NCBI GenBank assembly: GCA_034620365.1
Contig: JAQGEQ010000305.1
Coordinates: forward strand, 62,001-126,000
Length of the DNA: 64,000 bases
DNA from: Pegea sp. RAD2-039
Taxonomy: Eukaryota; Chordata; Thaliacea; Salpida; Salpidae
Reading direction: 5' to 3'
Position numbers and translations under genes: made by a program. Below are positions 6,524 through 64,000 of the stretch, piece by piece. The number at the start of each line of letters is the position of its first letter. Position 1 is the first letter of the stretch. The notes below the pieces were generated by a model. The model made no database searches and had not been told where the DNA came from. It worked only from the letters and a program-made list of their open reading frames with translations.

Positions 6524-9500
6524 ATGGACGTTGGAGGAAAATTTGTCGGAGTTTTTTGTTTATTACTCTTAGTACAAGTCAGTTCAAATTACGACTAGTT
6601 TTAGTAACAAACAATTCAGTAAATATTTTTTTTCAAAACTGTTTTTTATAGATTGCTGAACTTACCACTCCCTTTAAGGTATCAGGACTTAGTAAGTGTT
6701 TTCATTTTAAAAGCAAGTCATGAAAACAAACTTTTATTATATTTTTAAAACAGATTCTGGACCAAAATTCATGGGTTCATATCACATCAACGTGGTTGAT
6801 TCTAACATGAATTTAATTTCTGATAATGTTGTTGGTGCTCTAGTAAAGAGCGTTAATCATCAATACAACTTTGGATATTCAGATACAGCATTACCAGTTT
6901 ATGATCGTGTCTTGACTCAGCATCCTCAATTAGCTTCCAGTCCCCAAAAAGTTTACCTAAAGCTCTTCAGAAATGTGAGAAGTGTACAGCCATATTATAT
7001 GGAGCTCGAAACAAATGTTTTATCAAATTATACTTGTATGCTAACGGGACATTTGCTGAATTCAGAAGCACATTTACCAAGTGAAAAAGTTCCCATTAGT
7101 AAGACACTTGTAAATTACAACGTTTGCCAAAAAGTTAGTACAACTATTTGACAATATAAGCATCAGTTCTTTTAATTTATTTAACTTTTAGTTTGGTTTT
7201 TTCATCATTAATGGAGAATATCGATACTTTTTGGTGCGAAGGAATCCGGCCGAAGTTGTAATGTACAAATACAAAAAATACCTAAAAAATATTCACCACT
7301 CTCGTAAGTAATCAACATTAAAAGTTATATTTAAAGAAACTATTTTCAATTTTGTTATCTTATTAAAGTATCTTTAAAATATTTATAATTTGAAAGTTTG
7401 AAAGATTTGTATCTAAAATGTAACTTGTTTCTCCTTTCGTTACTTTGTTGAAATATTAACAAGTGTATATCTCTCGTTAATTGATGAAAATATTCATAAG
7501 ATGTTTTGTTTAAATACTATTAGAGTAGTTAACAAGTAAATAGACAAGAAAATACTTTCAGCTTAATTGGTTGTTTCTAGCTTTTTTTCAAATATTAATT
7601 TTTAATAGTTTCTTTACTACCAACATTTGATGATAACTTTCCAACTGATTCAACTGATTGGACGCCAGGTAGTGATACTTTGACGCTAACTCCAGAGGTT
7701 TGGGTTGACCCAGAACTTTGTAAGTAGCCATTGTTTGATTCTATTTTATTGAAAAATGATTCATTAAAAACAACTTCTTCAGGGTTAACCTTCTCAAATG
7801 AAAGAAAAAACAACCTTCTTGGTAAGTTTTCTTTTTAATTAAAATGCTTACAATCAAAAGTATTCATTAAAAGTATTCAGTGAATTATTTAAGATAATCA
7901 AAATAAATAAATTTAATAGCTAACTTATCCTACCATCACATATTTGCTTTACTTATTATATTTAACTAAGTTATATGCAAGAAATAATTTTGACTGTTTA
8001 TTGTAGGCTTGGATTATGTAATGAACAAAGAAGCAGGCCGGCATAAATTTCTATTCGACAAGACAATTAGTTAGTTAAGAAGTTGTTTGTAAAATGGTTT
8101 TTGTGGTTTCTTTTAAAAATTACTTCTAATAAAATCTTTATGAAACTTTATTTTAACTAACTCAAGTAAGTAAAAGAATTAATCTAACTGACCAAAACTG
8201 TGTCAGTTTATTTTTTGCTTGAATATAAACGTATTTTAAACATTATTTTTCAAGATGAATAAACTTGATAAACAATTTAAATATTTTTAGTTACTAAAAT
8301 GTTTGAGGATAGTGTCGCTCCGAATAAGTTCAATGCTACTATTCAACGTATTCAACGAGTATTTAATTATCCACAAAAGTACTCATACACAGTTAAGATT
8401 GGAGTTGTTGTGTCTGCAGAAGTTATAAGAAAACATTCAACCATAGGTATTGATAGCTGGATCAACTACTTGGTTTACGAGGTATATTAATTTTCTAATG
8501 ATTTGATTTTACTAAGTAATAATTATAAGTTAGTATAAAAGTAATAATTTTTTACAAAATTCTTATTGATAAAATATTTTCAAGACAAATAGACTGTTTC
8601 AACACATTCAACTTAAACGAAAGGGGTTAGACATAAAGATTAGTTTGGAAAAGATTATGAAGCTAGATCTTGCTCAGGTATTAAAAGTTCTTTAATTTTT
8701 ACTTTAATCCAAACACTATCACTTGCTGATTTTGTGCAAACACGGTTGCAAGTTACAAACGATTTCACTTTTCGAACAGAGTAAAAACGTTCATCGAGTT
8801 GCAGTTAATTCTGGTTTAGAGGCTGTGATGTCACATCTTCAATTAGAAGCACAAGCTGAAATAGATGAGTTAGATATCGTAATTCTACTCGCAAACGAAA
8901 ACTACGTAATGAAAAGTAAATATCTAATTTGATTGGTTCAATTACCATTACTTTTGTATGCATTTTTTAGAAATGAATTTTAAAAGATTTGTTTGCGAAG
9001 AAGAAACTCCAATTTATAGCATACAAGATTCAGGCTCATCTACAATACTCAGACTGACACAAAGCATTGCATTTGCGTATGTTTAACTTTGGTTTATAGA
9101 TTATAATTATAGATAATGGATTTTATTTTTATTTTTTCTGTAGGCTTCACGTTGTCCCAGTTGAATTTACAACTTGTAAATTTCGGCAACACGACTTTGT
9201 CACCTCTATTTTGAAACTACCACGACTTAACTCTTTGCAATGGTCAAAATGTTCTATTGCTTCTCTTGAAAAAAGCTCGTAAGTTAATTGCTTTTAAATC
9301 AATGTGTCAAATAGAATATTGTTTTATTAATAACTTATATACTTGATAAAAAAACATATTTTTGATACAATTTTCAGACGTCTTACATGCTTAGTTAATA
9401 AGCAAGTCAAGCCTCTGGGCCAATTTGAAGCTTATCCAGGAAAATTCTTTTCACATAATGCACAATGTTTTAGACTGTGGGGTAATGGTGCAGTTATTGC

Positions 9501-11275: not shown

Positions 11276-14027
11276 CAATTGCTAAAGTTAATCAGTTTCT
11301 GATTTCACTTTGTAAATTACAACTTGAATGTTGTAATCCAATGCGCTTGTTCTAATTTCAATTTATTTTTACCTGTTTCTGTTTGGTGTTTCTTTCTTGT
11401 TAAAAAACTTTTGTATAACCTTTTTGTTTCTACCTTGTTAACTGTTGTTTAAGATGATTTAACCTTAAGCACAGAATCGATTGGTACAAATATCGGTGCC
11501 ATGGAATTTTTACTTTGGCATGAATAAAGAGTACATCTTTTAAACTTGCTTTTAATTTTGTACAGCTAAATCAAATATCATTTGTTAAGAACAAGCTTTG
11601 TAAACTTTTACTTTCGACAACAATAAATAAGTAAAACACTTTAATATTATCTTTTAATCAAATAAAAACTGAAAAAAATCAATTAAGAGATTAAACTATT
11701 TTTGAATCACCTCTTAAAAAGTTGTAAATTATATCTTTTAATTTAACTTACCCATAAAACCTCAAACTCATTAGGTTATCGATATTTCTCGACAAACTAA
11801 TTTTATATAAAAAGTTTTCTATTTAATGTTGCTTTAAAGATTGAACTGCTTAAAAGAAATTAGCAGATAAAATAAAAAACTAATTGAATGAAATTGTTTC
11901 ATACAAGATAAAATAATTTTTTAAAAGTAATTGGCATTTTTAGGAAAAATAAGTATTTTATTTAAGATTATTTATTAAACAAAAAAATCAATGACCACTA
12001 GAAACAGTTAAACAGGAAGGGAAACTTTGAAAGTTATTTGTTTGAACAGAAAAAGAGGAAGAAGGAAATTGTAATTGAGCATGATATACATTTTTCAAAA
12101 ATAAGTTTATATTAGTAGCATAAGAAAGAGAAAAATAAATGCAAGCAAAATAAAGAAATCATTTTGTTTAAAAAAATTCAAAAAAAGTATTAAATACATT
12201 AAACAAGTTTCAAACATATATTTTTATATTTCATTGTCAAAAAATATAATAAACAATATTGATAAAAGTATCCTTTTTTTCGGTTCGCTGAAAATTATTT
12301 TTTTTCTCTGACGAGTCTTCAAAATCTTTCAGAAAGCCTCTGTAATTTATTTAGTGAGTTACCTCCGATAAAAATAAAAGATACATCCAGATAGCTTTGA
12401 GCTGATCGTTCCTTATTACTTCTGCAATCATTTTTAACATCCTAAATCTTTATTTACCTTAATGAACCTTATCTAAAAACTTACAAGACTATCTATCGCT
12501 CTGCACGATGACATGTACAAAATCTTTAGTATGGAGAACTCTTAAAGGGTAAAGATAACATCGGCCACCTTTGTTTTTGTTCTAAGTGTTCATGCAAGCG
12601 CGATATGAAATCGATAACAGTTAATAGGACTATATTTTCAAATGGCGCTTTCTACTCTACAAACAACTAAAGAACAGAAAAAGTAACATCAAAGATCAAG
12701 AAGAAACTCTAACAAGTTTTCTAGTTTGGTTGCACTCAACCGTGTTTTATTTTTGACTTTATTTTTATAGCACACCCAAAATGGCCGAATTAATACTCGG
12801 CCAAAATAGGTCATTGTAATTATTAAATAGTACTCTTTTTAGTTTGCTATTAAATTGAAAGTTGTAATCTTAAGCAATACAGTTTTTGATTATTTTCTCA
12901 GAAAAAACATTAATTAAAAGTTGATATACGTTTAACCTGAAAAGGTGATAACATTTTTATTAAATAAATATACCCAAAAGTTTGTTGATGAACCATTTTT
13001 AAAAATAAATTTTAGCATTTCTCATAAAATTCATAGTAAAGAAGCATAAAGTTTAATATAAGTTTCTTATCTAACTTTTGGTTTTACACTTTTATGTAAT
13101 TAGTTAATGATATAGTCCTGTTGAAAAAGTATTAAGACATAAACATTATAAATAAAATTTTCTAGCCCACTTAGTTTGATGCATGAAGTGAGCAAAGCAT
13201 TTTGCTTTATAATAATAATAATCTATTCATTTACTGAGAATATGTTTGTTTTCACGAGAATATACATTAACAAATAACTGTTACTGTATATCATAAAAAT
13301 CCTAAAACTTTGCTGCTTCATTACCACATATTTGTGTATATTCATGCAAATATTTTTACAAAAACTTATAAAACTAGATCATTTTATTTTCTAATAAATT
13401 TAATCATCACAGATTCTAAACGAAAAAATAATCTAACTTTCTCAGAAAACTCTAAAATGGTTTTTTTACAAAAATGACTTTCTAGACTAAGTACAATCTA
13501 GTTTCCTTCAGTAAATGGCTTTCCGATACATTTGAATATTAATTAGACACTACTATTACTTATATTTTTTTATTTCTGTTAAAAGTTTTTAAATCATATT
13601 TTTTAATTGTTGTTTTAAAACATAAGTTTACTCTGAATCAATTTATTCGAATTCTGTTTTTAAAAACTGTTTTTTATAGAAATTTGACTAATTCTATGTT
13701 TATAAAATTTTAATTAATTAATTTAATTTTTTTTAATTAAATTATACTAATCATATTTAATATTAAACTAATTATTTTTAACAAAAAAAATTATATCTTT
13801 ATAGTGTTTAAAAAATTCATCTATTTGATATATATAAATTTATTATTATTTAGTAATATTCAATCAAGTTCTCTTTTCATACTTTTCAAAAACTTCAATT
13901 TTATAAACAATACTTTAAGAATGTTTTTTAAACTCAAGATTTGTCATTTAAATTTTATTATGATTTTTCTATTATTTTATTAGAATTTTCTGTACATTGT
14001 AGTCTTATAACATTTATAGCTTCTATA
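11276..14027. other. Intergenic region between the ADAMTS-like and dsRBD-DZF genes
   Basis: The first 250 bases are the probable 3' UTR of the upstream gene. The rest is AT-rich with no recognisable exon. A patch around 12300-12780 is less AT-biased but yields no open frame with a family motif. Immediately before the next start codon there are acceptor-like TTGTAG (to 14002) and TTATAG (to 14019) sites. Confidence 0.5.
11523..11528 (+). terminator. Candidate polyadenylation signal of the ADAMTS-like gene
   Basis: AATAAA lies 248 nt after the stop codon. It is the first exact signal after the coding end. In such AT-rich DNA a chance match is possible. Confidence 0.45.
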
Positions 14028-17000
14028 ATGAGTTATTATGGTAGACATGGTAAGTGAAAACTAAAATAAAGGTTTTGTATTTATAAACTTGAGATATTTA
14101 TATCTTTGGTAAAACATATAATAAATTAAAATAATATTATTTAATATAATATTGACTTGTTTTCTTACTTGAAAAAATAACAATCAATGATTTAAAGGTG
14201 ATAGCAGGGATTTCCATAGAGACATCAATGAAGTTCAATGTGTAAATTGAAATATTTGGTTTATTAGAATTAAGCTTAATAATTAAAGTGTTTTATATTT
14301 AATTGATAGTGGGTAATATAAAATGTTGTAAAATCTTATAACTGTTAGAAATAGCTGTTTCATTTATATAAATATTTTTATTACTCAGCCTCAAGCTTAT
14401 AAACCCATTAAAGTAAAAGAGATCAAAAGTTTTCTTTATGCTTGGTGTGGTCAGAGAGGTTATAAACCTCATTATGAATGCTCTGGAAAAGGGTCTTCAC
14501 ATGATATGCAGTTTACTTGCAGTGTAAGCTACAATTCTTTCATAATTTTCTAATTAATAAAATCTTGTTCAAAGCTTTCAGTAAGTGGCTTTGACAATTC
14601 AGAATGTGCTAAGGGTAAATCCAAAAAAGAAGCTCAAAGCAGAGCTGCATGGAAGTTCGTCAACTATCTTGTTCTAAATGATTTAATGTCACCTTTTGAA
14701 GCACCAGAACGACCAGTAAGTGTCTGTTTGATTTACATCCTCTGATTTGTCTCATTTAGGAACAAGACTTGAATGTTGATGATTCTTCAACTATATCCAA
14801 TTTTGTTTCAAAATTTCACAAAGAAAGTGCTGAAAAAGTGAATTGCATAGAAGTCATATGAGAAAATATTTAGTAGTTATTTTTAGGTGTACAATAATGG
14901 TGGATGGGTTTTGAGTAATTGTGTGACGAGACTCACTGAATTTCTCCAACTAAATCATTCGTCCGCACCAACTTACCTATTTAGCAAAATTGGAACAGAT
15001 CAAGATTTTGAATTTACCTGTAAGATGAAGTTCATACTTTTTATTAAACAGAAAGGTTTGTTGCACTTACTTCTTTAGCTACTATTCTAGGTGTTGTTTA
15101 TTATAGGAGAATAAAATAAAGAGAATTTAGTTATATTTCCAGCTGGATTTTTTGATATAATTTTAACTATATATAAATTTTGAAAATATAGGAATCAAGT
15201 ATTCTATTATATAATATTTAATTTGAAATGTATATATTTAAATACAATTAGTTTTAGTTATAGGTCCATTAATTAATTTCATAAATTGTCATAATCTAAT
15301 AAAAAGCAAAGAAATTCCAATAGATTGAAAAACGACTAATTTATGAGATGAATTGGTTTGAAACATGGCAATAGATAATGATAAATAAACTCGTTTTATA
15401 ACCTTTTGGAATTTCTTTGCTTTTTGAAAACTTACTAGACTCTACAAGTTAGTAAGCTGTGATTTGATTAAACAATTAATGATTTAGATTTGATAATAGA
15501 AAGTTGCTCTATCACATGCTTCCAAAATACAGCCTTTAACGTAAGCTTACAAAACATTCAAATTGTTATATTTTTTCTTTAGCCAAAATGTCTTCAAGTT
15601 TATCTATAAGACTCATTAACTTAAAAAACATATTTTTATCGCATTAAAACCTCTTTTATAAGTTTCATAGCGGTTTTTATCTTACCTGCTTAGTCGCCCG
15701 TAAAATGTTTATTTTGAAGTTTAAATGATCGCTACTTAATACAACAATCTCTTAAGGCTACAAAATCTTTACAACAAATTTATTTGTTGTTTCTGGTAGA
15801 ATATAGTTCATCCGGACGAGGAAAAACTAAGAAGCAGGCTTCTTCAATCTGTGCTTGTATAATAGTTCGACAACTGTTTCATGAGGGGCTTATTGAAAGA
15901 GCCAATGGCCGTCATTTGCCTAAGGATCTCAAGTACTCTGCAGAAGACCAACAAGATGAAACGTTTTCATCTAACTCCAAACCTGAGGTAATCAAAAATC
16001 CGGATGTCTTAAGGTTGATCCGAGTAAAAGATACAATTGAGAAGATTAGCTAGAGATGAACTGATGTAAATTATCTCAAATTTTGCTGTTTAGGTGGGTC
16101 GGAATGTTCGTAAATTTGAAAGCTTGAAATTAGAGGAAAGCAAACCAAAAAGCTCAGTAAGTTATTAAAGTGGTTTTTTGAGTTACTTTTAACTTGATGT
16201 TTTAGGAATTAGAATTTCAGAGTCCATCTTCTGATCAGGTTTGATTGATGTAAGATTTGATTTAATCTCTGAGTAATCTGTGTGTAACAGAAGAAAAAAA
16301 AAGAGGACCCGTTTTTTATAATACGGCATTTCATCTATTCCAAACATTCTGAAGTTTATCCCAGTGATGGAGAATGTGACTCGCTGACGGAAGTGATTAA
16401 AAGAACAAAACATGCTTTGAAGAAAACAGTTGAAGAAATGGAAGATCCAAGCAAAGAAATTGATCAAGAGTCAGTTGATTTATTTTTGTTGTAAATTGAA
16501 TCCCAAATCAATTTTTCTTCAGTTTAGATTTTAAAATGTTTTGTAATCGATTATTTTGCTCTTATTTCAATTTTTAACTTTAAATGTTTCTTTGATAAGA
16601 TGTTGTTATTCATCATTTTTAAACTGACAAATAACATAACTTTTACAATATTTATTTTTTAGCAATTTTATTTGGCGGATCAAGGTAATGGGAGCCATTG
16701 CCAATCAAACCGTGTTGAAAAACGACCTCCAAGTTGAATATGCTCTTCTGAGCAGCTCTTTTGCAACTAAATCATTGTTATCACAAATTTACGAGCTTTT
16801 ACCTAAATACTTACCGGTAAGCAGTCCCTAACTACCTCATCCTCATCTGACCATAATATTTCAGGGTAATAATTATCAACTATCGATTGATAAAAATTCA
16901 ATCAAACTTGTTTTCGACACATCAGAGCTTGATAAAACTTTTCCCGATGCAGAACCAATCTGTCATCCAGTTGTTGTCAAAATGCACTTAACTTCTCAAA

Positions 17001-17824
17001 TCATGCGATTATTGCAAAATGGTATGTAATCAATACTTAAACAAGTATTAAGCTTTTGTTTTTTCTAGATGTTAGCAAAGTCAGACCAGATATAAGTGCT
17101 AAAATACCTTCTGATATGTTGGATATAAAAGATTGCTTACAAACGCTGGCCCAATTACGACGCTGTATGTGGTTTGAGGTATCAACTGATGTCACATTAT
17201 TTTCAATAAAAAGCTCAAAATATTTGATATCAGAATAAAATGATTTAATTACTCTGCTAATCTTATCCAATTTATCAATAATTAAATCTGTTTACTAGCA
17301 ATATGCAAGTTCACATCCCTACTACAGGCTTACAATTCGATTGCTTCACTATCTTCGTAAGACTTCTGAAACATGGGCTTTACTGAGTGAATGGGTAAGT
17401 AAAGTTTTCTCTACTGATGCTGTTGAAGTGGAAACTTTTATCTGCAGGCAGTTGAATTGTTAACAGCAAATATCGAGACGTTTCATACAAACGTCGGTGG
17501 TGATATGTCTGTTGTAGAGTTTTTTGAAGCTATTCGTGAAGGGCTTTTGTTGCCAGGTTGATATTTAACTGGCTTTTAGACTTGGTTTTTATCGTTTTTC
17601 TAATGATGACAGGGGGCCCCAAAGTTATAGATCCTTGTGAGCAATCAAAAGTAGATGTCATCGGCTATTTGACTCCTCAAGTTCGCAAGAATTTGACATC
17701 AGCTGCTAAAGTGAGTTAGAAATCATCACTAGATGTCGTCGTGACGATTTGTGTTTGTTTGTAGTTGGTACTGGAACAATTTGCTCATAGCTTTGGTAAC
17801 CTGGAAAGCCTGAAAAGAGCTTGA
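14028..17824 (+). CDS. Double-stranded-RNA-binding protein with two DHX9/MLE-like dsRBDs and a C-terminal DZF domain
   Basis: I reconstruct 17 exons, 611 aa: 14028-14049, 14198-14241, 14389-14523, 14575-14715, 14760-14837, 14887-15055, 15800-15987, 16094-16156, 16206-16238, 16291-16469, 16663-16816, 16865-17021, 17069-17178, 17299-17394, 17448-17556, 17613-17710, 17765-17824. All phases agree. dsRBD1 (about 32-103) begins IKSFLYAWCGQRGYKPHYEC and ends KKEAQSRAAWKFVNYL, the style of the first dsRBD of DHX9/MLE. dsRBD2 (about 143-222) begins NGGWVLSNCVTRLTEFL and ends CACIIVRQLFHEGLIE, again like DHX9. Residues 295-605 follow the DZF (NF45/NF90/ZFR) domain: KHSEVYPSDGE, then VMGAIANQTVLKNDLQVE, LAQLRRCMWF and IDPCEQSKVDVIGYLTPQVR. 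No helicase motif is present. NF90 has the opposite order (DZF first), and its dsRBDs are of a different type. DZF domains dimerise through a nucleotidyltransferase-like fold without catalysis, so an RNA-binding partner role is inferred. Confidence 0.9.
15301..15425. repeat. 125-bp hairpin (MITE-like) inside an intron of the dsRBD-DZF gene
   Basis: The ends are perfect 20-bp inverted repeats: AAAAAGCAAAGAAATTCCAA at 15301-15320 and its reverse complement at 15406-15425. Weaker pairing continues inward for about 25 bases. It lies in the 744-nt intron 15056-15799, the largest in the gene. Terminal inverted repeats around a short core fit a miniature inverted-repeat element. I see no clear target-site duplication. 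In the pre-mRNA it would fold into a hairpin. Confidence 0.8.
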
Positions 17825-18000
17825 ATGGTATTTTGAATATTCAAATCAAACATATCGATGTTATATTCTTTTCAAATTTGTTTTCATTAAAAAAAGTTGG
17901 GTGATCATTTTCTTGAAGTTATTTTTTGATAATATTTTCATTATGCCATAAACATTATCATGTTTAAGTTCTCTATATTTTATAAAATGGTGTTTAAGTT

Positions 18001-18006
18001 AATAAA
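18001..18006 (+). terminator. Candidate polyadenylation signal of the dsRBD-DZF gene
   Basis: AATAAA lies 177 nt after the stop codon, a plausible distance for a short 3' UTR. Confidence 0.45.
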
Positions 18007-19194
18007 ATATAATAATGACAAACTGGTAGTTATCTCTTACATTACTGACAATTGATTTGAAGTGTTTACAAGTTTACATCATACAGTCTAAAAGTTGCTT
18101 ATGATGTTTGTTAGTCAATTGGTTACGATGTCTAATTTTTATTCTAATTATTTTACCTAAAAGATACGAAAACAACATTTTAAGTATTTACTATTTGGGT
18201 ATTTTCAGTAGGAAATCAATTCCAAAAGTACAACAGAGTTTACATTTAAGCTCCTGTTTCAGCCTAAGTTATGTTTGTATCCTAGAAATTGTAACTGAAT
18301 CAGATCATAAACTGCAAAGGCTTCCACTGTCATAATATTTACAAACAGCTTAGCTAATGGCACAAAAGAACCTTTTCGATGTTTCTTCTCGTTTACATAG
18401 TTGCTAATAATTCTCTCTACGCATACAGTCTCTTAGTATAAACAGATACCTCACCAAATAACTTTTGGTATTTTTACAACTTACTCTATCTTGTCAGGAG
18501 TTATTGAAAGATGCATAGTAATATCAACCGCAGATCAGCAAGCCTTTTTCAGTTATCAACCTAAGAGATATCTTCCTTTCCTCCGACAAGTGATTTATTT
18601 TAGAGAGTACGATCACAAAATCAGTCAAGACAGTTAGTACAGTGTAACCATCATACTTTTGTAAACATTGTTCAGTTTCCATATTCGGCATCAACAGCAT
18701 TTAGAAAAGAACACAAATGATTGTAGTGGGTTGTGTTTGAGTATCCTGGTTCTATAGTTTCATATACATTTATAAATGCTATTAAAGAAGACTCATCACT
18801 ACAGGTTCTGCTTATATCTAACAATCAATTTAATTGATCTTTTTGTGGTCTTAGTTTATAGTTCGGGTGATGATTCACATATTTGAAACATAAATAAAAG
18901 TATCAAAAATTGAAGATTTTAATCCTTTAGTTGACGACAAAATAAGCAAAACAAAAAGTACATCAGAAGTTGAGACAAAATTGTAGTTTCATAGCAGAAT
19001 TCAACGAGATCAGATAAAAAAGGGAAATTTAGAATGAAATTTAGACGTGACTTCAAATCTATTTACTGTATCACTGGCTAACTGTCTAATGATTATCAGA
19101 TATTTAAATACCTTTAATAACTTATTTTAAATAGATTCATAAATTACAACAAATATACTTTGTAAACAACTTCTCAAAACAATATTTTAGATAG

Positions 19195-19539
19195 AAAAAT
19201 TTCTGATTGATTGACATGAAACAATTAAAATCAATAAAAGACTTGAATTTGGTATCAAATATTTAATATTTGCATCAATAAGGAAATCAAAATTTTAATT
19301 TTCACAGTTGACTGCTGTTAACGAAGAATATCAGAAAGTTTAGAAAGCAGTGTAATTAAGCGGAACACTCGAGTTGTTCCAACATCTACAATTACATTTC
19401 CTAACTTTGGATAAAAACTTTTATCTATTTTTTCCTTAACTAGCTTCGCTATGAACAGTTCAATTAAAATCTATTGAAGAACTTGACAGTTTTCAACTTT
19501 TGAAACTAATCTGCAGAATTCTAATAACTTTTCCAAATC
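19195..19539 (+). repeat. 345-bp dispersed repeat, copy 1
   Basis: This is nearly identical (only a handful of differences by eye) to 21938-22282, same orientation and same length. Both start AAAAATTTCTGATTGATTG and end near AATAACTTTTNNAAATC. The ends are not TG...CA and show no obvious terminal inverted repeats, so an LTR origin is not supported. It contains a less AT-rich core around GCGGAACACTCGAGTTGTTC. Confidence 0.9.
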
Positions 19540-21937
19540 GTGTTAATAATCGTTTTTAGTTTTTAATAATTGTTTTAGGCAAACTTGTTTTACTTAGTCT
19601 ATAATTGAAAGAAAAAAGCTGTTAAAACTCGTCTATAATCAGAGAAAATAATCATTAAAAAAAAACTTTTCAAACAAGCCCTTTCGGGAAGATTTAAGGT
19701 ACTGGATGTTGTATTAATAAAGTAAATTAGTTTACCGCTGAGGTAAATGTGTTAAACATCATTTTGGAATAAACTGTGTTGAGGGTAGCCCATATTGTTA
19801 GTTAGTATACTTATCGTTGTCGTTATCCGCCTTATTAGTTGGAAGAAAGCTTTATATAAAGAGTCATTGTCATAACACTAAAGACTACCAAGTCCATCTT
19901 CGCTTGGATAAATAGTTTTTATTAAATTAATTTTGTTCAAGAGTATTTCCAACTCAAACTGGTGAATTGACACAACTAGAGCTCTAGTTTTTTGTTTATT
20001 GTCAAAACTGAGTAAGTGTTCTTACTGTTTCAAAAAATTTACATTTCCAAACAATAGTTTTGAAAACCATTGGTATATTAGGGCACTAAACACAAAAATA
20101 ACGGTCACTTTAATATAAAAACTCGTTTTGTGTGCTATAAAACTATTAAAAACTGAATTGGAACATTACATATCAGAAGAAACTTTAATACCAGATTTAA
20201 AAACCAAACTATTATTGTAAGATTTAGTTTTTTTATTAAACAAATTTAAGAGAAAATAATTAAAGTATATTTCAGAGATTTAAAGTATATTCACAAACAT
20301 ATAAGACAAAAGCAGAAATTTCAAATGCTATTAAATATTTATATAAACACAGATTTTATAAGAATTTTTGAAAATGGAAATAGTTGTCACCAAAGAAGCC
20401 ACTTTTACACTAAAAATATTTTTATGGACTTCAAATTTAATTCAAATAGATCTTCTGTGGCAATTCACCTGGGACAGGAAAATATGAAATGAAACCCACT
20501 ATCCACAAACCTTGAGGTCACTGTCCCAGGTCACAAAATCCTAATTGTTCATAAGATGTTTGGTGTGCCTTAAAACAGAATCGCTTCTCTAAAATTGTGT
20601 TGATATACCAGCTGTTATAGTAGCAAAGAAGGAAACATTAAAATCTAGTTTCATTTAGATGATAAATTTCATCAAAGATTACTTGATATTAACAAATAAG
20701 TTGTTTATTTTGAGTTATATTCTTTCTTTTTGTCCATTATAGTCTTGTGAAAATATGTAGCAAGTCAAATCTTTGTCATTACAGATCATGAACATTAAAT
20801 TAAGATCTTTATCAGCCTCAAATTCTTCTATATTGATCTCTATAACTTCTTCTATAAGTATTGCGTTAGATTGATAAACCGCATTAGTGAAATTAACTCG
20901 AAAGAAATATTAACTATTTTTTATTCATTTCATCATTTTAACAACGAAGCAGATACATATTAAATATATAAAACAATATTTCAAGTTATTTAGTTAAAAA
21001 TTACTTACAAAACTAAACATAATTAAGTTTGCATACTACAAAAAGGTTAATAATAGCTTAGAGTTTAAATTAAGAAACTTAATTAGTTTTGAAAAATATA
21101 TATACAAAAAATTATAAATATATCACTCAAAATTATTGTAAGTTTTGAACTAAAATCAGATTTGATAAACTAATAGCTAAATATTTACAATAAAATATTT
21201 CAAAAAGTCTTAGTCAGATTAATTAGTCTTAGATACACTGAAAGTAAATAAATATACAACCGATGATGAAATTCAAAGTAAATGGTTGATATGCAAAATG
21301 GCCTAGGCTTTTTCAATCAGATTGTTCAACAAATTTATGTGTTTACTTAACATAAACAGATAGTTGCTTTCTAAATGATATTTTTTAGCAAAATATACTT
21401 TCCAAGGCCTTTAGTCGTTTGTTTACTGATTTACAGCCTTTGCCAGCAACAACTACTCGTTTTGAAATTGTTTTGCCGAAGGAGTTTACATATGAAACAA
21501 GCTCAAGGTATTAAGTTTTTAAAAAAAGTATTTTTTGAGTTTAATGAAATTTTCTATAACATTAATTTACAACAATTAAAGGAGTATTTAGCGAGAAAAG
21601 AATTTACAGTTAAATCTTGCAACTCTTAAATTAAGCACTTATTAAAATAGAATGAAAACTAAATATTTATGTAATGAAAAAATTGATACTTTTTTTAATT
21701 TGACTGAAGCTTATAGTATTGAAAATCTAGTTTACTTTTTGTTGTTTTTTAAGTTTTCTGTAAACTTTCATAGTTTAGTTCCACAAAGATTTACAGTTAG
21801 TTGTGGACAATTGTTGTTGGAATAAAAACGAAGGTTGAGTTAAAAATCACTCTGATAGCAAAATTGTATTAATAGAAAATTCGTTAGATTAACTTATATG
21901 TCTTGAAAGTACTAAAATCAAAAAAAAAAATGTAATC

Positions 21938-22282
21938 AAAAATTTCTGATTGATTGACATGAAACAATTAAAATCAATAAAAGACTTGAATTTGGCATCA
22001 AATATTTAATATTTGCATCATTAAGGAAATCAAAATTTTAATCTTCACAGTTGACTGCTGTTAACGAAGAATATCAGAAAGTTTAGAAAGCAGTGTAATT
22101 AAGCGGAACACTCGAGTTGTTCCAACATCTACAATTACATTTCCTAACTTTGGATAAAAACTTTTATCTATTTTTTCCTTAACTAGCTTCGCTATGAACA
22201 GCTCAATTAAAGTCTATTGAAGAACTTGACAGTTTTCAACTTTTGAAACTAATCGGCAGAATTCCAATAACTTTTATAAATC
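21938..22282 (+). repeat. 345-bp dispersed repeat, copy 2
   Basis: This is the direct copy of 19195-19539, 2743 bp downstream. The sharp borders and near identity amid unrelated flanks point to a recent insertion or duplication of a short element. The family is unknown. Confidence 0.9.
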
Positions 22283-45358: not shown

Positions 45359-48300
45359 CTCGTTTTGATCTTGCTGTTCGTTTTCCGGTGAGATTTCTTG
45401 GGCTTGTTGGCTTTCAACTTGTTCACTTTCAAGCTTTAATGAACTTTCACTTTCTGTTGGAGTTTCCTGTTTAGATTCTTCCACAATTTCAGGAACTACT
45501 TCAACTTGTGGAGCTGGTTCAGGTACGGTTTCAACTTCCGGTACTGGTTCAGGTACGGTTTCAACTTCCGGTACTGGTTCAGGTACGGTCTCGACTTCTG
45601 GAACTGGTTCAGGTACGGTCTCGACTTCTGGTACTGGTTCAGGTACGGTCTCGACTTCTGGTACTGGTTCAGGTACGGTCTCGACTTCTGGAACTGGTTC
45701 AGGTACGGTCTCGACTTGTGGTACTGGTTCAGATACGGTCTCGACTTGTGGAGCTGGTTCAGGTACGGTCTCGACTTGTGGAGCTGATTCAGGTACGGTC
45801 TCGACTTCTGGAACTGGTTCAGGTACGGTCTCGACTTGTGGTACTGGTTCAGGTACGGTCTCGACTTGTGGTACTGGTTCAGGTACGGTCTCGACTTGTG
45901 GAGTTGGTTGCGGAGTTGTTGGAGCTTCAGATGAAGGTTCTGAAACTATTTGAACAGATTCTTTTTCAACTGATTTAGTAGCTTCAACTTGAACTGATTC
46001 TTCAGCTTGAGCAGTTTCTACGACTTGTTTATCAACCTCTGATGTCTTATCTACACTTCCAACTGTTTCAACTTTCTCACTTTCTTGACTTTTATTATAA
46101 CTCTCTCCCTGAGACTGATGTTTATTTTTATCTGCAAAAAAAAACAAAATTAAAAGACATTTTTATCAAACATCTACGACATCGAATTTAATCATATTTG
46201 AACGAAATAATTCAGATAATTTAGATACATATCACTCTGTGAATAAAACTACATTTATCAACAGCTTTGTAACGCTCTAATAATTAACATTTTGAGATTG
46301 CATTAGATTGAGCTTCACTTTGCTACAGCATCTTCAATTGATGCAAATACGGGCGTAACCCAAACTATTTATCGCTTCGAGTTTACGCTTTCTTCGCATC
46401 ACTACATCCACTAGGCGGCTGCGAATTTCAGGTTTAGAGCAAAAACTACTTCGAATGATTCATGTCATAAACACGCCATCAGAAATATTCAAGGATTAGA
46501 TTTTAAAGTGAAAAAGTAGAAATGAAAACAAATGACAATTTCGTTTAGATCTAACCATTAAATAGCCTAAAAGTAAGAATAAAAAGTTTGTTGAAAACTT
46601 ATCCATCCAAAAACGTTAATATTAAAAAATTGTAACAATTAAATGTTTAAAAGTTGAAAAACTTGATTTGAATAATCTTTAGAGTTTACATTTTTAGATT
46701 AAGTAATCTATCATACTTTTTAACAAGTTACAAAAGTTAAAGACAGACGACATTTCCTTATAAGGAGGTTGCTTAGTTCATATTTCATGTTGATTATAAA
46801 ATGAACGAAAAAGTTTAAAAAAAGAGAATTTAGTGATAATGTAAAAGTCATTGAAGCATAAAAAAGCTATGTCGAGCGATCTCCATATTTGATAAAAAAA
46901 CCATGTTAAATGAGAAAAGAAATGATTTATTAGATAACAAATGCTAATGTTATTAGATTTATGAAGTTCTACATTTAACTTGAATTTGTTCACCTAAAAT
47001 GGAATTGTAAGAAACCAAATCAATCTAGCTAAATGGCAAAGATGAAGATTGCTTTATATAAACAACACGTTATTATATACAGATGTGTAATCTTAGGTTT
47101 AATAAAAAATGAAAACAGTAAAAAACTTAATTAAAATTTAAAAAAAAATATATTAGAAATTAAATCTAATTGAAACTGTAAACAAATTTTTAAAAAGTTA
47201 TTCGGGATAAAGTGAGATTACACAGTCATCACATATTTAATCACTTTTTTAGCAAATGAAATTAAAAGTATTGAAATGTTGTCAGATATAAACTTTGATG
47301 TAAATTGCTTGAGCTGCTAGAAAATTACAACACAAACAATCTAATTAGAACTTAGTACTTTTAGAGAACCAAAATTATGCAGAAAAGTAAAGAAAATTGA
47401 TGAACTTAGTGAAATTTGTTTCATTATTATCACTGACATCTAGCGATTGATAAAACAAACAATTTATAAGCTAGGTGTCGTTGTATATCTAGTAGAAAAT
47501 CACAGCAAACACTTTAAACTAACCTTTTAAGGTATGGAAGATTTGATAGAAGCAAGTTTGTTTTCAAAATAAATATATGTAATTTAGCATAATATAAAAC
47601 TAAAAGGTTTCAGACCACAAGTAAGTTGATAAAATATAAGTTTGAAAAAGATGAAATTATTGAATAACAAGGTCTCAGCAGCAAAACTAGTAAAAGCATA
47701 ACCAGATAATTGCTTCAGAGGTTTTAATAAAAATGCCAACTTAAGATAAACATGTTATATTTAAACACAACAAAAAATATATGTAAAGAAAAATCTGGTG
47801 GTTAATTCATGACTAGGATAACAAAATATTACATCAATGAACAAGAATAAATACTTTATACCAAAACCCATAATTTTCAATAAGACAAACAATGAGACCA
47901 TTTCATATTGTAAACTGATAATTATAATATTGATTACATTATAAGCTTTAAAAAGTCACAAGTTTAATAATCTTCTAATAGTTTTCAAAAAGAATTTAAA
48001 TGAACAAAGCAATTGAAAATTTAGTTATATCATTAACAGAAAATCTATAATTACATGGCATAGAGGGTGACTTCAGCAAGTTTAATGGAAGTATTGATCA
48101 TATGAAACTTGTAGTTAGTGATGGAATTGAAATAGAAGCTTATAAATTATTTATAATAAAAGTTCAACTGATGTAAGACTAAAATTATATTATAGACTAG
48201 ATATTTTATATATTACTGATGATTTAAGTATTTAATTTGAAGTATTTAATTGTCCAATCAAATTAATTTAATGATAGTAATATTGCTACTAGTAGCATAT

Positions 48301-61158: not shown

Positions 61159-64000
61159 ATGTCTGATGCAGAAAGTATTCAAGAAGAACCAACTGCTTCT
61201 GTAAGTTCCACTTTTTATTAGACTTTGTTTTATGCAAATTTTTATATAGGGTGGAGAAGAAGAAGAAAATGAAAATGGTGTTATGATATCAGAAAAAACG
61301 AATGAACCTCCAGTAAATAAGCAATTAAGTTGTTTGTAAAAAGTGTTTATTTTAAAAACTCTACATCTAGGAACAAGTAAAGCGCTTCGAGTTCCTTCTC
61401 AAACAAACGGAGATTTTTGCTCATTTCATGAACCCTAGCGTGAAAGGAAAAACTCCTTCGAGTCCTTTGAAGATGAGAGGAAGACCTCGTAAGGTGGATG
61501 CAGGTGAAACAAGCAAAGATTCATCTCTAAAAGAGTAAGTGAAGAAGAGAACAGTCATAAAGATCATCAACTGATTCTTGTTTTAGTCTTCGTCATCGAC
61601 GGACTGAACAAGAAGAAGATGAAGAATTGATGTCAGATGCAAGAAAGACACAAGGAGCAATCACAAGATTCGAGAAGTCGCCCAATTACATCAAGAACGG
61701 AGAAATGAGAGATTATCAAGTTGGTGTTTTTGGAAAATGATGTGACTACTTCATGAAAATATCTTCTTTAGATTCGAGGATTGAACTGGATGATCTCTCT
61801 CTATGAAAATGGGATCAGTGGAATCCTTGCCGATGAGATGGTCTGATGCTCATCTTTAAAATATCATTCTTTTCAATCTTCTCTTTTTCAAAAGGGTCTC
61901 GGTAAAACTCTTCAAACCATCTCGTTGTTGGGATTTTTGAAACATTTTCGTAACAAGCCCGGACCACATATGGTGATTGTGCCCAAATCAACCATCTCTA
62001 ATTGGAGGATGGAGTTTGAACGTTGGTGCCCTTCTATTAGGACAGTTTGTTTGATTGGAACTAAAGACCAAAGAGTTAGTTTCATTTAAACAGTTCTCAT
62101 GATTTAATTTCAACTTTGCTTCAAATCTTATTTTGACAAAAAACATTTGATAAAAGCCACTTAAGTTGATTTGAACTTCTTAAATTGTAGCATTTCCACG
62201 GACAATATTAAGACCAAAGTTTTTTTAAGATACAGAATTTGCGCTTGGTGCCCAAAAGTGCTGGGGAATCCCTTGCCTAGGTCTCTTACTCGGATAGTTT
62301 TTTGGTTTTTCCTAAAATATTTCAAAAATTAATTGTTTAGTTCCAAGTTCATAGTAAGATGCAATCTTGAGTGCCCTCTAGTGTCCAAACTCATCTTTTG
62401 ATGGGGTTCTGAACTAAAGAAGCTCTCGAACTTAATGTTTGATTCTCATTTTAAACTCCTAAATTTCAACACACGATATTAAAGACTCCAAGTATATTTA
62501 CAAAAACTTTGTCTTCTGTTTTCAGTCAGACATCATCTCAAACACAATGATGCCAGGAGATTGGGATGTATGCATCACTTCGTTTGAGGTGGTTATCATC
62601 GAGAAAGCCACCTTCAAAAAGTTCGATTGGAAATTTGTTGTTATTGATGAAGCTCATCGAATCAAGAATGAAAAATCTCGGGTAGATCATCTCATTTGTG
62701 TCCTAAATCACTTCTCACATCTTTTCTGTTTTCAGTTATCGATGATTGTGAGACAATTTAGATCCACAAATCGGCTTTTACTGACAGGGACCCCTCTTCA
62801 AAACAATCTTCATGAGTTGTGGGCTCTACTCAATTTTCTACTACCGGATGTCTTCAACTCTTCCGACGTAAGACACTTTTAGTTTTTCTTTATTCTTCTG
62901 ACAATCTCCTTGGTTAAAAACCTTAAACCTTATAAACTCCTCGGCTACTAGCGCCAAGCAAATCTTGTGCTTGGTGGTTGAAGGTGCTGAAGACTCAATT
63001 GCTTCTAGCACCTTAACTTGTAAAAACTCCTCGACCACCAACACCAAGTCAATAATAACTTGTCTTACAAACAAATCTTGTGTTTGGTGGTTGAAGGTGC
63101 TGAAGACTCACTTGCTTCTAGCACCTTAACTTGTAAAAACTCCTCGACCACCAACACCAAGTCAATAATAACTTATCTTACAAGCAAATCTTGTGTTTGG
63201 TGATTGAAGGTGCTGATGACTTAATTGCTTCTAGCACCTTGACTTGTAAAAACTCCTCGACCACCAACACCAAGTCAATAATAACTTGTCTTACAAACAA
63301 ATCTTGTGCTTGGTGGTTGAAGATGCTGAAGACTCACTTGCTTCTAGCACCTACTTCATTGGTATGGTGTGTGTCCCCAACAATAATTTTTTAATCATTA
63401 TTTATAGTTTTTTTCTTCAAATTTAGTTAGCTGGCATCAGTTAGTAATCAGCGGTTTTCTGCTTGTTTTAATTTTTTTTTTATTCTTAGGATTTTGATTC
63501 TTGGTTTAATGCTAACAACCTTGAAGACAAAGAACTAGTTCACCGTTTGCACAGCGTAAGCTCACTTACTCACAAATCTTTCAATTATATCAAATTCATT
63601 TCAACTTTTTTAGGTTTTACGTCCTTTTTTACTTAGAAGATTGAAAAATGATGTAGAAAAATCATTACTACCAAAAAAAGAAACAAAAATCTACACAGGA
63701 TTAAGCAAGATGCAAAGAGAATGGTGAAGACTTTCCAAGATCAAATCTTTCTCTCATCCCATTTCTCTTCAGGTACACGAAGATCCTGGTTAAAGACATC
63801 GACATTATTAATGCAGCTGGTAAAACTGATCGAGTCCGTCTCCTTAACATCATTATGCAGCTTCGCAAATGTTGCAACCATCCGTACCTCTTTGATGGTG
63901 CAGAACCTGGTCCACCTTACACCACCAGCGAACATTTGATTGTCAATTCCGGCAAACTAACTGTCCTCGACAAGCTTTTACCCAAATTTCAAAAGCAAGG
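61159..64000 (+). CDS. SMARCA5: ISWI-family chromatin-remodelling ATPase (SMARCA5/SNF2H-like), N-terminal part
   Basis: Eleven exons lie within the window, all phases agreeing: 61159-61200, 61250-61312, 61371-61534, 61587-61719, 61772-61840, 61895-62074, 62526-62681, 62736-62867, 63490-63555, 63614-63723, 63773-64000 (continues past the edge). They encode the first 447 residues. The acidic N-terminus is followed by [17 protein letters not shown] (AT-hook-like GRPRK) and the autoregulatory [14 protein letters not shown]. The SNF2 ATPase lobe 1 then shows [19 protein letters not shown], Walker A ADEMGLGKT (154-162, split by an intron), DEAH at 258-261, and [20 protein letters not shown]. Lobe linker motifs [32 protein letters not shown] and [14 protein letters not shown] follow. 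Lobe 2 and HAND-SANT-SLIDE lie outside the window. The protein slides nucleosomes in the nucleus. Acceptor TTTAACAG (to 61132) is 26 nt before the ATG. The donor after exon 5 (ATG|GTCTGA) is unusual. Confidence 0.97.
62935..63353. repeat. 113-bp tandem satellite inside an ISWI intron
   Basis: About 3.7 units of 113 bp fill most of the 622-nt intron 62868-63489; the anchor AATCTTGTG recurs at 62961, 63074, 63187 and 63300. Each unit contains AAGGTGCT and, 20-odd bases on, AGCACCTT, an inverted pair able to form a hairpin. CTTGGTGGTTG and CACCAACACCAAG form an outer, weaker pair. The units are much less AT-rich than surrounding intron sequence and differ from one another by only a few bases. 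Confidence 0.92.

Follow-up and report, generated by a model that had tools for sequence, protein, structure and literature searches.

A candidate DZF protein with DHX9-type double-stranded RNA-binding domains at its N terminus in the tunicate Pegea

The predicted gene and the type of its domains

The 64,000-nucleotide (nt) stretch analyzed here, referred to as the window, lies in contig C12 (JAQGEQ010000305.1, positions 62,001–126,000) of the 105.7-Mb, 387-contig assembly of Pegea sp. RAD2-039 (GCA_034620365.1), and contains a gene predicted to encode two double-stranded RNA (dsRNA)-binding domains (dsRBDs) followed by a DZF domain. Exon-by-exon reading of the window yielded 16 GT-AG exons with consistent phases and one open product, running on the plus strand from position 14038 or 14028 to 17824. 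Depending on the start chosen, the product comprises 593 or 594 residues and not the 611 of the original prediction, of which the three named exons (exons 6, 7 and 9 in Table 1) are all present, with a 33-nt exon in addition. Translation probably starts at ATG 14038, exon 2 then beginning at 14389 (phase 0, CAG acceptor); this start is preferred because the dsRBD1 exon of a diverged paralogue, L009 (see below), opens in that phase too and with alignable residues. An alternative start, ATG 14028 with exon 2 entered via an AAG acceptor, is also open.

A Pfam search of the product (E ≤ 0.1; four families reported) placed dsrm on two stretches with 71.2 bits (cut-off 23), and DZF_N and DZF_C reached 41.6 and 33.6 bits (cut-offs 27.1 and 24.3), so that both halves of the DZF family are represented; DSRM_2 scored 15.7 bits, below its cut-off of 27. 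Neither a helicase nor a zinc-finger domain was found in this search, the DEAH core of DHX9 and the C2H2 fingers of ZFR both being absent. The proposed phase-consistent joining of two dsRBDs to a DZF domain, with no helicase, is thus borne out by the gene reading and by Pfam.

When the dsRBD part was compared with all PDB chains, the top 12 of 26 matches (E ≤ 1) were DHX9 or MLE, with E-values down to 1.8e-15. Loqs followed as the next group at about 1e-4, and no NF90 chain appeared among the 26 matches, although the library includes 5dv7, a 700-residue ILF3 chain. In a 17-row dsRBD tree, from which the third dsRBD of L009 was left out, dsRBD1 of the window gene grouped with DHX9/MLE dsRBD1 (100/98), as did dsRBD1 of L009, C35 and, on a long branch, C246 (four rows from this genome in all). 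The dsRBD2 of the window gene and of L009 joined DHX9/MLE dsRBD2 (85/84), and the dsRBDs of NF90, PKR and TARBP were placed elsewhere. Grouping of both dsRBDs with NF90 had been set beforehand as the result that would count against the idea; they grouped with DHX9/MLE instead, and an NF90 type was rejected on the PDB matches and the tree. As far as sequence can tell, both dsRBDs are of the DHX9/MLE type, not the NF90 type, and stand in the dsRBD1-dsRBD2 order of DHX9.

The DZF part matched ILF3 in the PDB at 6.6e-28 and its best ILF2 chain at 5.2e-9. In an eight-row DZF tree, the genome's own NF45 and human ILF2 formed a separate group (100/100), the window gene and L009 clustered together (100/100) and both joined the ZFR-like C35 (87/95), the order of ILF3, ZFR and C246 not being settled. 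Among the same eight rows, human ZFR was the best match of the window DZF outside its own genome, with 122 bits versus 114 to human ILF3. The human ILF3, ILF2, ZFR (part of the protein), DHX9 dsRBD2, PKR and TARBP2 rows are provisional reference sequences, of which those of ILF3, ILF2 and DHX9 closely match PDB alignments. Judged by these comparisons, the DZF domain lies on the NF90/ZFR side and is not of the NF45 type. The earlier label of an "NF45/NF90-type" DZF therefore stands as regards a full domain with both Pfam halves and falls as regards NF45, since NF45 and ILF2 form a group of their own.

Table 1. Predicted exons of the window gene and extent of the duplicated stretch
Feature	Position in window	Strand	Basis or remark
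First coding exon (MVDM), probable	14038–14049	+	Exon-2 phase as in L009; alternative 14028–14049 with exon 2 from 14396
Exon 2, dsRBD1 first half (DHX9 dsRBD1 type)	14389–14523	+	Gene reading, Pfam, PDB search
Exon 3, dsRBD1 second half	14575–14715	+	Gene reading, PDB search
Exon 4, linker dsRBD1-dsRBD2	14760–14837	+	Gene reading
Exon 5, dsRBD2 first half (DHX9 dsRBD2 type)	14887–15055	+	PDB search, tree
Exon 6, dsRBD2 second half and linker	15800–15987	+	PDB search, tree
Exon 7 (63 nt), probable remnant of the third dsRBD kept in L009 (its first half)	16094–16156	+	Short alignment, by eye
Exon 8 (33 nt), probable remnant of the third dsRBD (its second half)	16206–16238	+	Short alignment, by eye
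Exon 9, DZF start	16291–16469	+	Pfam, PDB search
Exons 10–12, DZF_N part	16663–17178 (16663–16816, 16865–17021, 17069–17178)	+	Pfam, PDB search
Exons 13–16, DZF_C part and stop codon	17299–17824 (17299–17394, 17448–17556, 17613–17710, 17765–17824)	+	Pfam, PDB search
Duplicated stretch	12644–19643		99.3% identical inverted copy on C31; C31 tail equals the head of the window's own contig

Copies, paralogues and related genes in the genome

Two near copies of the gene exist. The one on C31 (C31:202.4-206k) is inverted, with 99.3% identity extending over 7 kb or more; since C31:204801-207500 and C12:1-2700 are identical, about 75 kb separate the C31 copy from the window copy. The other, on C260, corresponds to about 12288–21026 of the window (its likeness stops near 21026, with 6 kb beyond that point compared) and is 94–96% identical in the gene and about 88% and 80% identical in the flanks. 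Exons 2–16 of the window and C260 copies differ by 65 substitutions in 1760 positions (3.7%), with no exon indel or stop, and their introns differ at 41 of 1657 positions (2.5%) and show 15 gap positions; 28 differences fall in 667 positions of the near 3' flank, and the far flanks differ by 11–20%. Because the gene body differs less than the far flanks, gene conversion between these copies is suggested, and dN/dS (the ratio of nonsynonymous to synonymous divergence) among young copies, which is about 0.8 or higher, may be distorted. Near the edge of the duplicated stretch, the window also carries direct repeats of 345 bp (19195–19539 and 21938–22282; 97.4% identical), which may have been among the elements that moved or that brought about the duplication.

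The diverged paralogue L009 (C12:949.7-952.6k) lies 870 kb from the window gene and reads dsRBD1-dsRBD2-dsRBD2'-DZF in a 15-exon model for which a first exon and a stop were not located. The phases of its 14 introns are the same, in order, as those of introns 2–15 of the window gene (14 of 14 comparable). In Pfam, two dsRBD stretches and both DZF halves pass, with Dicer_dimer also over its cut-off on the same stretch. The third dsRBD matched DHX9 dsRBD2 in the PDB at 4.6e-14, DHX9 or MLE making up 10 of its 11 matches at E ≤ 10. Two exons of this third dsRBD align with the 63-nt and 33-nt exons of the window gene (VGRNVRKFESLKLEES on IDVDEYGNWTLENS and ELEFQ on SLDFN); exons 7 and 8 are probably remains of a third dsRBD, on a short match assessed by eye. 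The two genes share 257 identical residues in 581 aligned codons, and their dN of 0.47 at a dS of 1.19 (near saturation) indicates long-term constraint. For a functional test, L009 is better suited than the window copy.

NF45 is encoded at C8 (L014) and is 54% identical to human ILF2. In each of the other three DZF gene types found (the window family including L009, C35 and, as the weakest case, C246), a DHX9-type dsRBD precedes the DZF domain. The gene at C35 (L010) combines an N-terminal exon (MANFFGYT...), which we take to be ZFR-like, with a one-exon DHX9-type dsRBD (4.3e-13 to DHX9 in the PDB), one C2H2 finger and the DZF domain. At C246 (L015), the DZF domain is preceded by a degenerate dsRBD, for which all seven PDB matches (E ≤ 10) were MLE or DHX9 (best 0.0034). 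The paralogues thus form a series with one, two or three DHX9-type dsRBDs ahead of the DZF domain. The NF90 layout, DZF followed by dsRBDs, was not seen among the DZF loci from exon-wise family scans; these scans list C8, C35, C246 and C12:950k and missed the DZF of the window gene itself, so that further diverged DZF genes may exist. On the minus strand of L010 (about 6960–7860), a minisatellite of TCTTGATCTTCATCA-like units immediately precedes the exon that encodes the dsRBD of the ZFR-like gene.

Comparison of a provisional human DHX9 helicase core sequence with the genome gave 28 matches from 31 candidates, in 11 clusters, 10 of which align at 30–41% identity over 427–497 residues and the eleventh of which consists of scattered pieces (71 residues). 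A DHX9 helicase was recognized in none of the 11 clusters of this one assembly, the completeness of which is not established, by exon-by-exon searches that miss diverged exons. The best match, at C293, is presumably YTHDC2-like, those at C83 and C67 presumably resemble TDRD9 and DHX34, respectively, and the others further DEAH proteins. A provisional sequence of the N-terminal part of DHX9 matched 14 places at E ≤ 10; 13 lie in DZF genes, the exception being C71 at noise level (E 6.4). A genome scan with dsrm gave 15 places, 6 in DZF genes; even the closest pair of dsrm place and helicase cluster, on C32, is 17 kb apart, and this dsrm place belongs to a kinase gene. DHX9-type dsRBDs were thus found only in DZF genes in the scans of this genome, and DHX9 has been lost, has diverged too far or is absent from the assembly.

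ADAR-type deaminase domains are encoded at C29 (870k) and C46 (C46:89.7-92.7k, L020), the latter with dsRBD matches alongside. The kinase gene on C32 (L019, C32:1185000-1194900) has dsRBD frames followed by what by eye is a protein kinase domain, a PKR-like layout, with dsrm over its cut-off at C32:1189037. Among viral contigs, no relative of the protein was found; five stretches fitted a pattern and none of the five was confirmed.

Origin of the gene and competing explanations

We favor, as the probable reading of these comparisons, that the window gene encodes a DZF adaptor of the ZFR/NF90 branch with an acquired DHX9/MLE-type N-terminal dsRNA-binding arm, which would be NF90-like but separately evolved and would probably pair with NF45. 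In the simplest history, a ZFR-type ancestor gene probably captured DHX9 dsRBD exons once and was then duplicated; in the branch leading to the window gene and L009, the zinc finger would have been lost and a third dsRBD gained, to be lost again later in the window gene. The architecture would thereby have evolved separately from NF90, with the order reversed. Mechanistically, the protein would probably act as NF90 does: its DZF domain would heterodimerize with the genome's NF45, and the two dsRBDs would grip dsRNA in tandem, as offered by long hairpins or inverted-repeat transcripts. Such a complex could coat or shield dsRNA in the nucleus and so modulate splicing, stability and ADAR editing, as vertebrate NF45-NF90 does. 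According to PMC11952958, the two dsRBDs of vertebrate NF90 drive dsRNA binding, the DZF heterodimer raises the affinity more than tenfold, and the nucleotidyltransferase fold of NF45/NF90 has lost its catalytic residues; PMC8304401 reports that NF90 proteins and ZFR modulate ADAR editing. A more far-reaching version is tentative and falls somewhat short of an even chance: DHX9 may have been dismantled in this lineage, with its helicase lost and its dsRNA-binding arm surviving only on DZF proteins, as a single-chain stand-in for DHX9 and NF90-NF45 that arose independently of vertebrate NF90 and in which the number of dsRBDs (one, two or three) was varied among paralogues.

Several observations weigh against the favored reading. 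Support for the dsRBD2 grouping is moderate, and Pfam passes just two of the three dsRBD stretches of L009. In C35, dsrm scored 20.8 bits in the gene search (cut-off 23) and 23.6 in the genome scan, and the zinc finger (zf-met) 18.2 bits (cut-off 21.2) in a ZFR-like context; dsrm in C246 reached 14.9 bits, again below 23, and both models are rough and were assembled by hand. The limits of the helicase search given above count here as well, as does the status of the window copy, which belongs to a set of young, weakly constrained duplicates: its 9 nt differences from the C31 copy in 1782 coding positions lead to 8 amino acid changes, and against C260 dN is 0.035 and dS 0.045 (dN/dS about 0.8).

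The same replacements bear on the idea that the window copy is a loosely constrained duplicate heading for decay, L009 being the working gene, which we consider unlikely. It would fit the recent duplication (99.3% for C31, about 94% for C260), the loss of the exon-1 splice donor and of ATG 14028 in C260, though ATG 14038 is kept there, and a DZF domain more diverged than that of L009 (122 versus 173 bits to human ZFR). However, two copies have an open frame through all 16 exons, the substitutions relative to C260 include no exon indel or stop, in contrast to the gapped introns, and replacements polarized by L009 are evenly spread (10 assigned to the window copy and 8 to C260, with 28 left unassigned). 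Moreover, the basic KK pair before helix 2, which has a functional role in dsRBDs, is kept in both dsRBDs of the window gene. A wrong join of a DZF gene to a small dsRBD gene next to it would be compatible with a gene model built from genomic DNA but is very improbable, because the dsRBD-then-DZF order recurs, on one strand, in C31, C260, C12:950k, C35 and C246. Phases are also consistent across the three introns between dsRBD2 and the DZF domain, and order and phases are the same in L009 (the order also in C35 and C246). On the linker phases and the paralogues, we rejected the wrong join; the dsRBDs and the DZF domain most likely belong to one gene.

DHX9 physically interacts with NF90/NF45 in animals, and the original prediction had proposed a fusion of the two modules. 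That the front end of DHX9 was fused directly to an NF90 gene, as a Rosetta-stone case of two physical partners, is possible but quite improbable. Both dsRBDs do retain the order and type of DHX9, the DZF domain scores well to ILF3, and the proposed placement of DHX9-type dsRBDs before a DZF domain was recovered. A simple DHX9-NF90 join, by contrast, probably does not apply, as the ZFR-like, zinc-finger-bearing DZF gene at C35 already has a DHX9-type dsRBD1; in addition, no DZF-then-dsRBD locus was seen in the exon-wise scans, which were not exhaustive, and the DZF domain scores slightly higher against human ZFR than against human ILF3. A better fit is offered by a ZFR-type gene that captured the dsRBDs and was later duplicated, because no NF90 layout was seen and because the ZFR-like gene and another DZF gene carry a DHX9-type dsRBD1.

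Alternatively, the architecture might be ancient and common in certain groups of animals, for instance as the ancestral form of ZFR, and seem new because the well-known DZF proteins come from vertebrates and flies; we regard this as somewhat unlikely. A DHX9-type dsRBD1 occurs in three DZF gene types of this genome, and L009 and, by eye, C246 share with the window gene the position and phase of an intron within dsRBD1 (between exons 2 and 3 of the window gene); the join therefore predates their split. The comparison was moreover confined to this one animal genome. On the other hand, such a dsRBD is lacking in human ILF2, human ILF3 and the part of human ZFR that was compared, and the passages considered from PMC11952958 and PMC8304401 describe DZF domains only with zinc fingers, alone or followed by dsRBDs. 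No description of a dsRBD-first DZF protein was found in the titles and abstract openings searched, which cover the literature in part.

Relation to known DZF proteins and neighboring features

Like NF90/NF110 (ILF3) and SPNR (STRBP), the window gene would unite a DZF domain of the NF90/ZFR side and two dsRBDs in one polypeptide. However, its dsRBDs come first and are of the DHX9 type, whereas in NF90 the DZF domain precedes two dsRBDs of another type, and its product ends right after the DZF domain (stop at 17824), whereas NF90/NF110 have a low-complexity C-terminal region (PMC11952958). With ZFR/Zn72D, it shares nucleic-acid-binding modules ahead of the DZF domain and, in C35, a ZFR-like paralogue with the same dsRBD1 type, but dsRBDs take the place of zinc fingers. 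The N-terminal dsRBD1-dsRBD2 order and sequence type are those of DHX9/MLE, but a DZF domain follows and the helicase core is missing. NF45 (ILF2), its presumed partner, belongs to the same DZF fold family but is encoded by the separate gene at C8; the window gene differs from it in DZF type and in carrying dsRBDs.

If our reading is correct, a dsRBD and DZF protein built from DHX9-type dsRBDs in reversed order would be a natural replicate of the NF90-like innovation. An animal that also has NF45 and ADAR-type genes, and whose small genome and introns of roughly 50 nt point to an invertebrate, would allow the purpose of the dsRBD-DZF-NF45 combination to be asked, and DHX9 and DZF proteins would be tied by gene structure, beyond their physical interaction.

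Elsewhere in the window, a 30-bp tandem coding repeat (PQVETVPEP units) lies within a 276-residue frame on the minus strand (45488–45909); frames beside it, at 43.4–44.9k, by eye resemble beta-thymosin repeats. At 61847–63998 on the plus strand, there are exons of an SNF2-type ATPase, which by eye we take to be ISWI-like.

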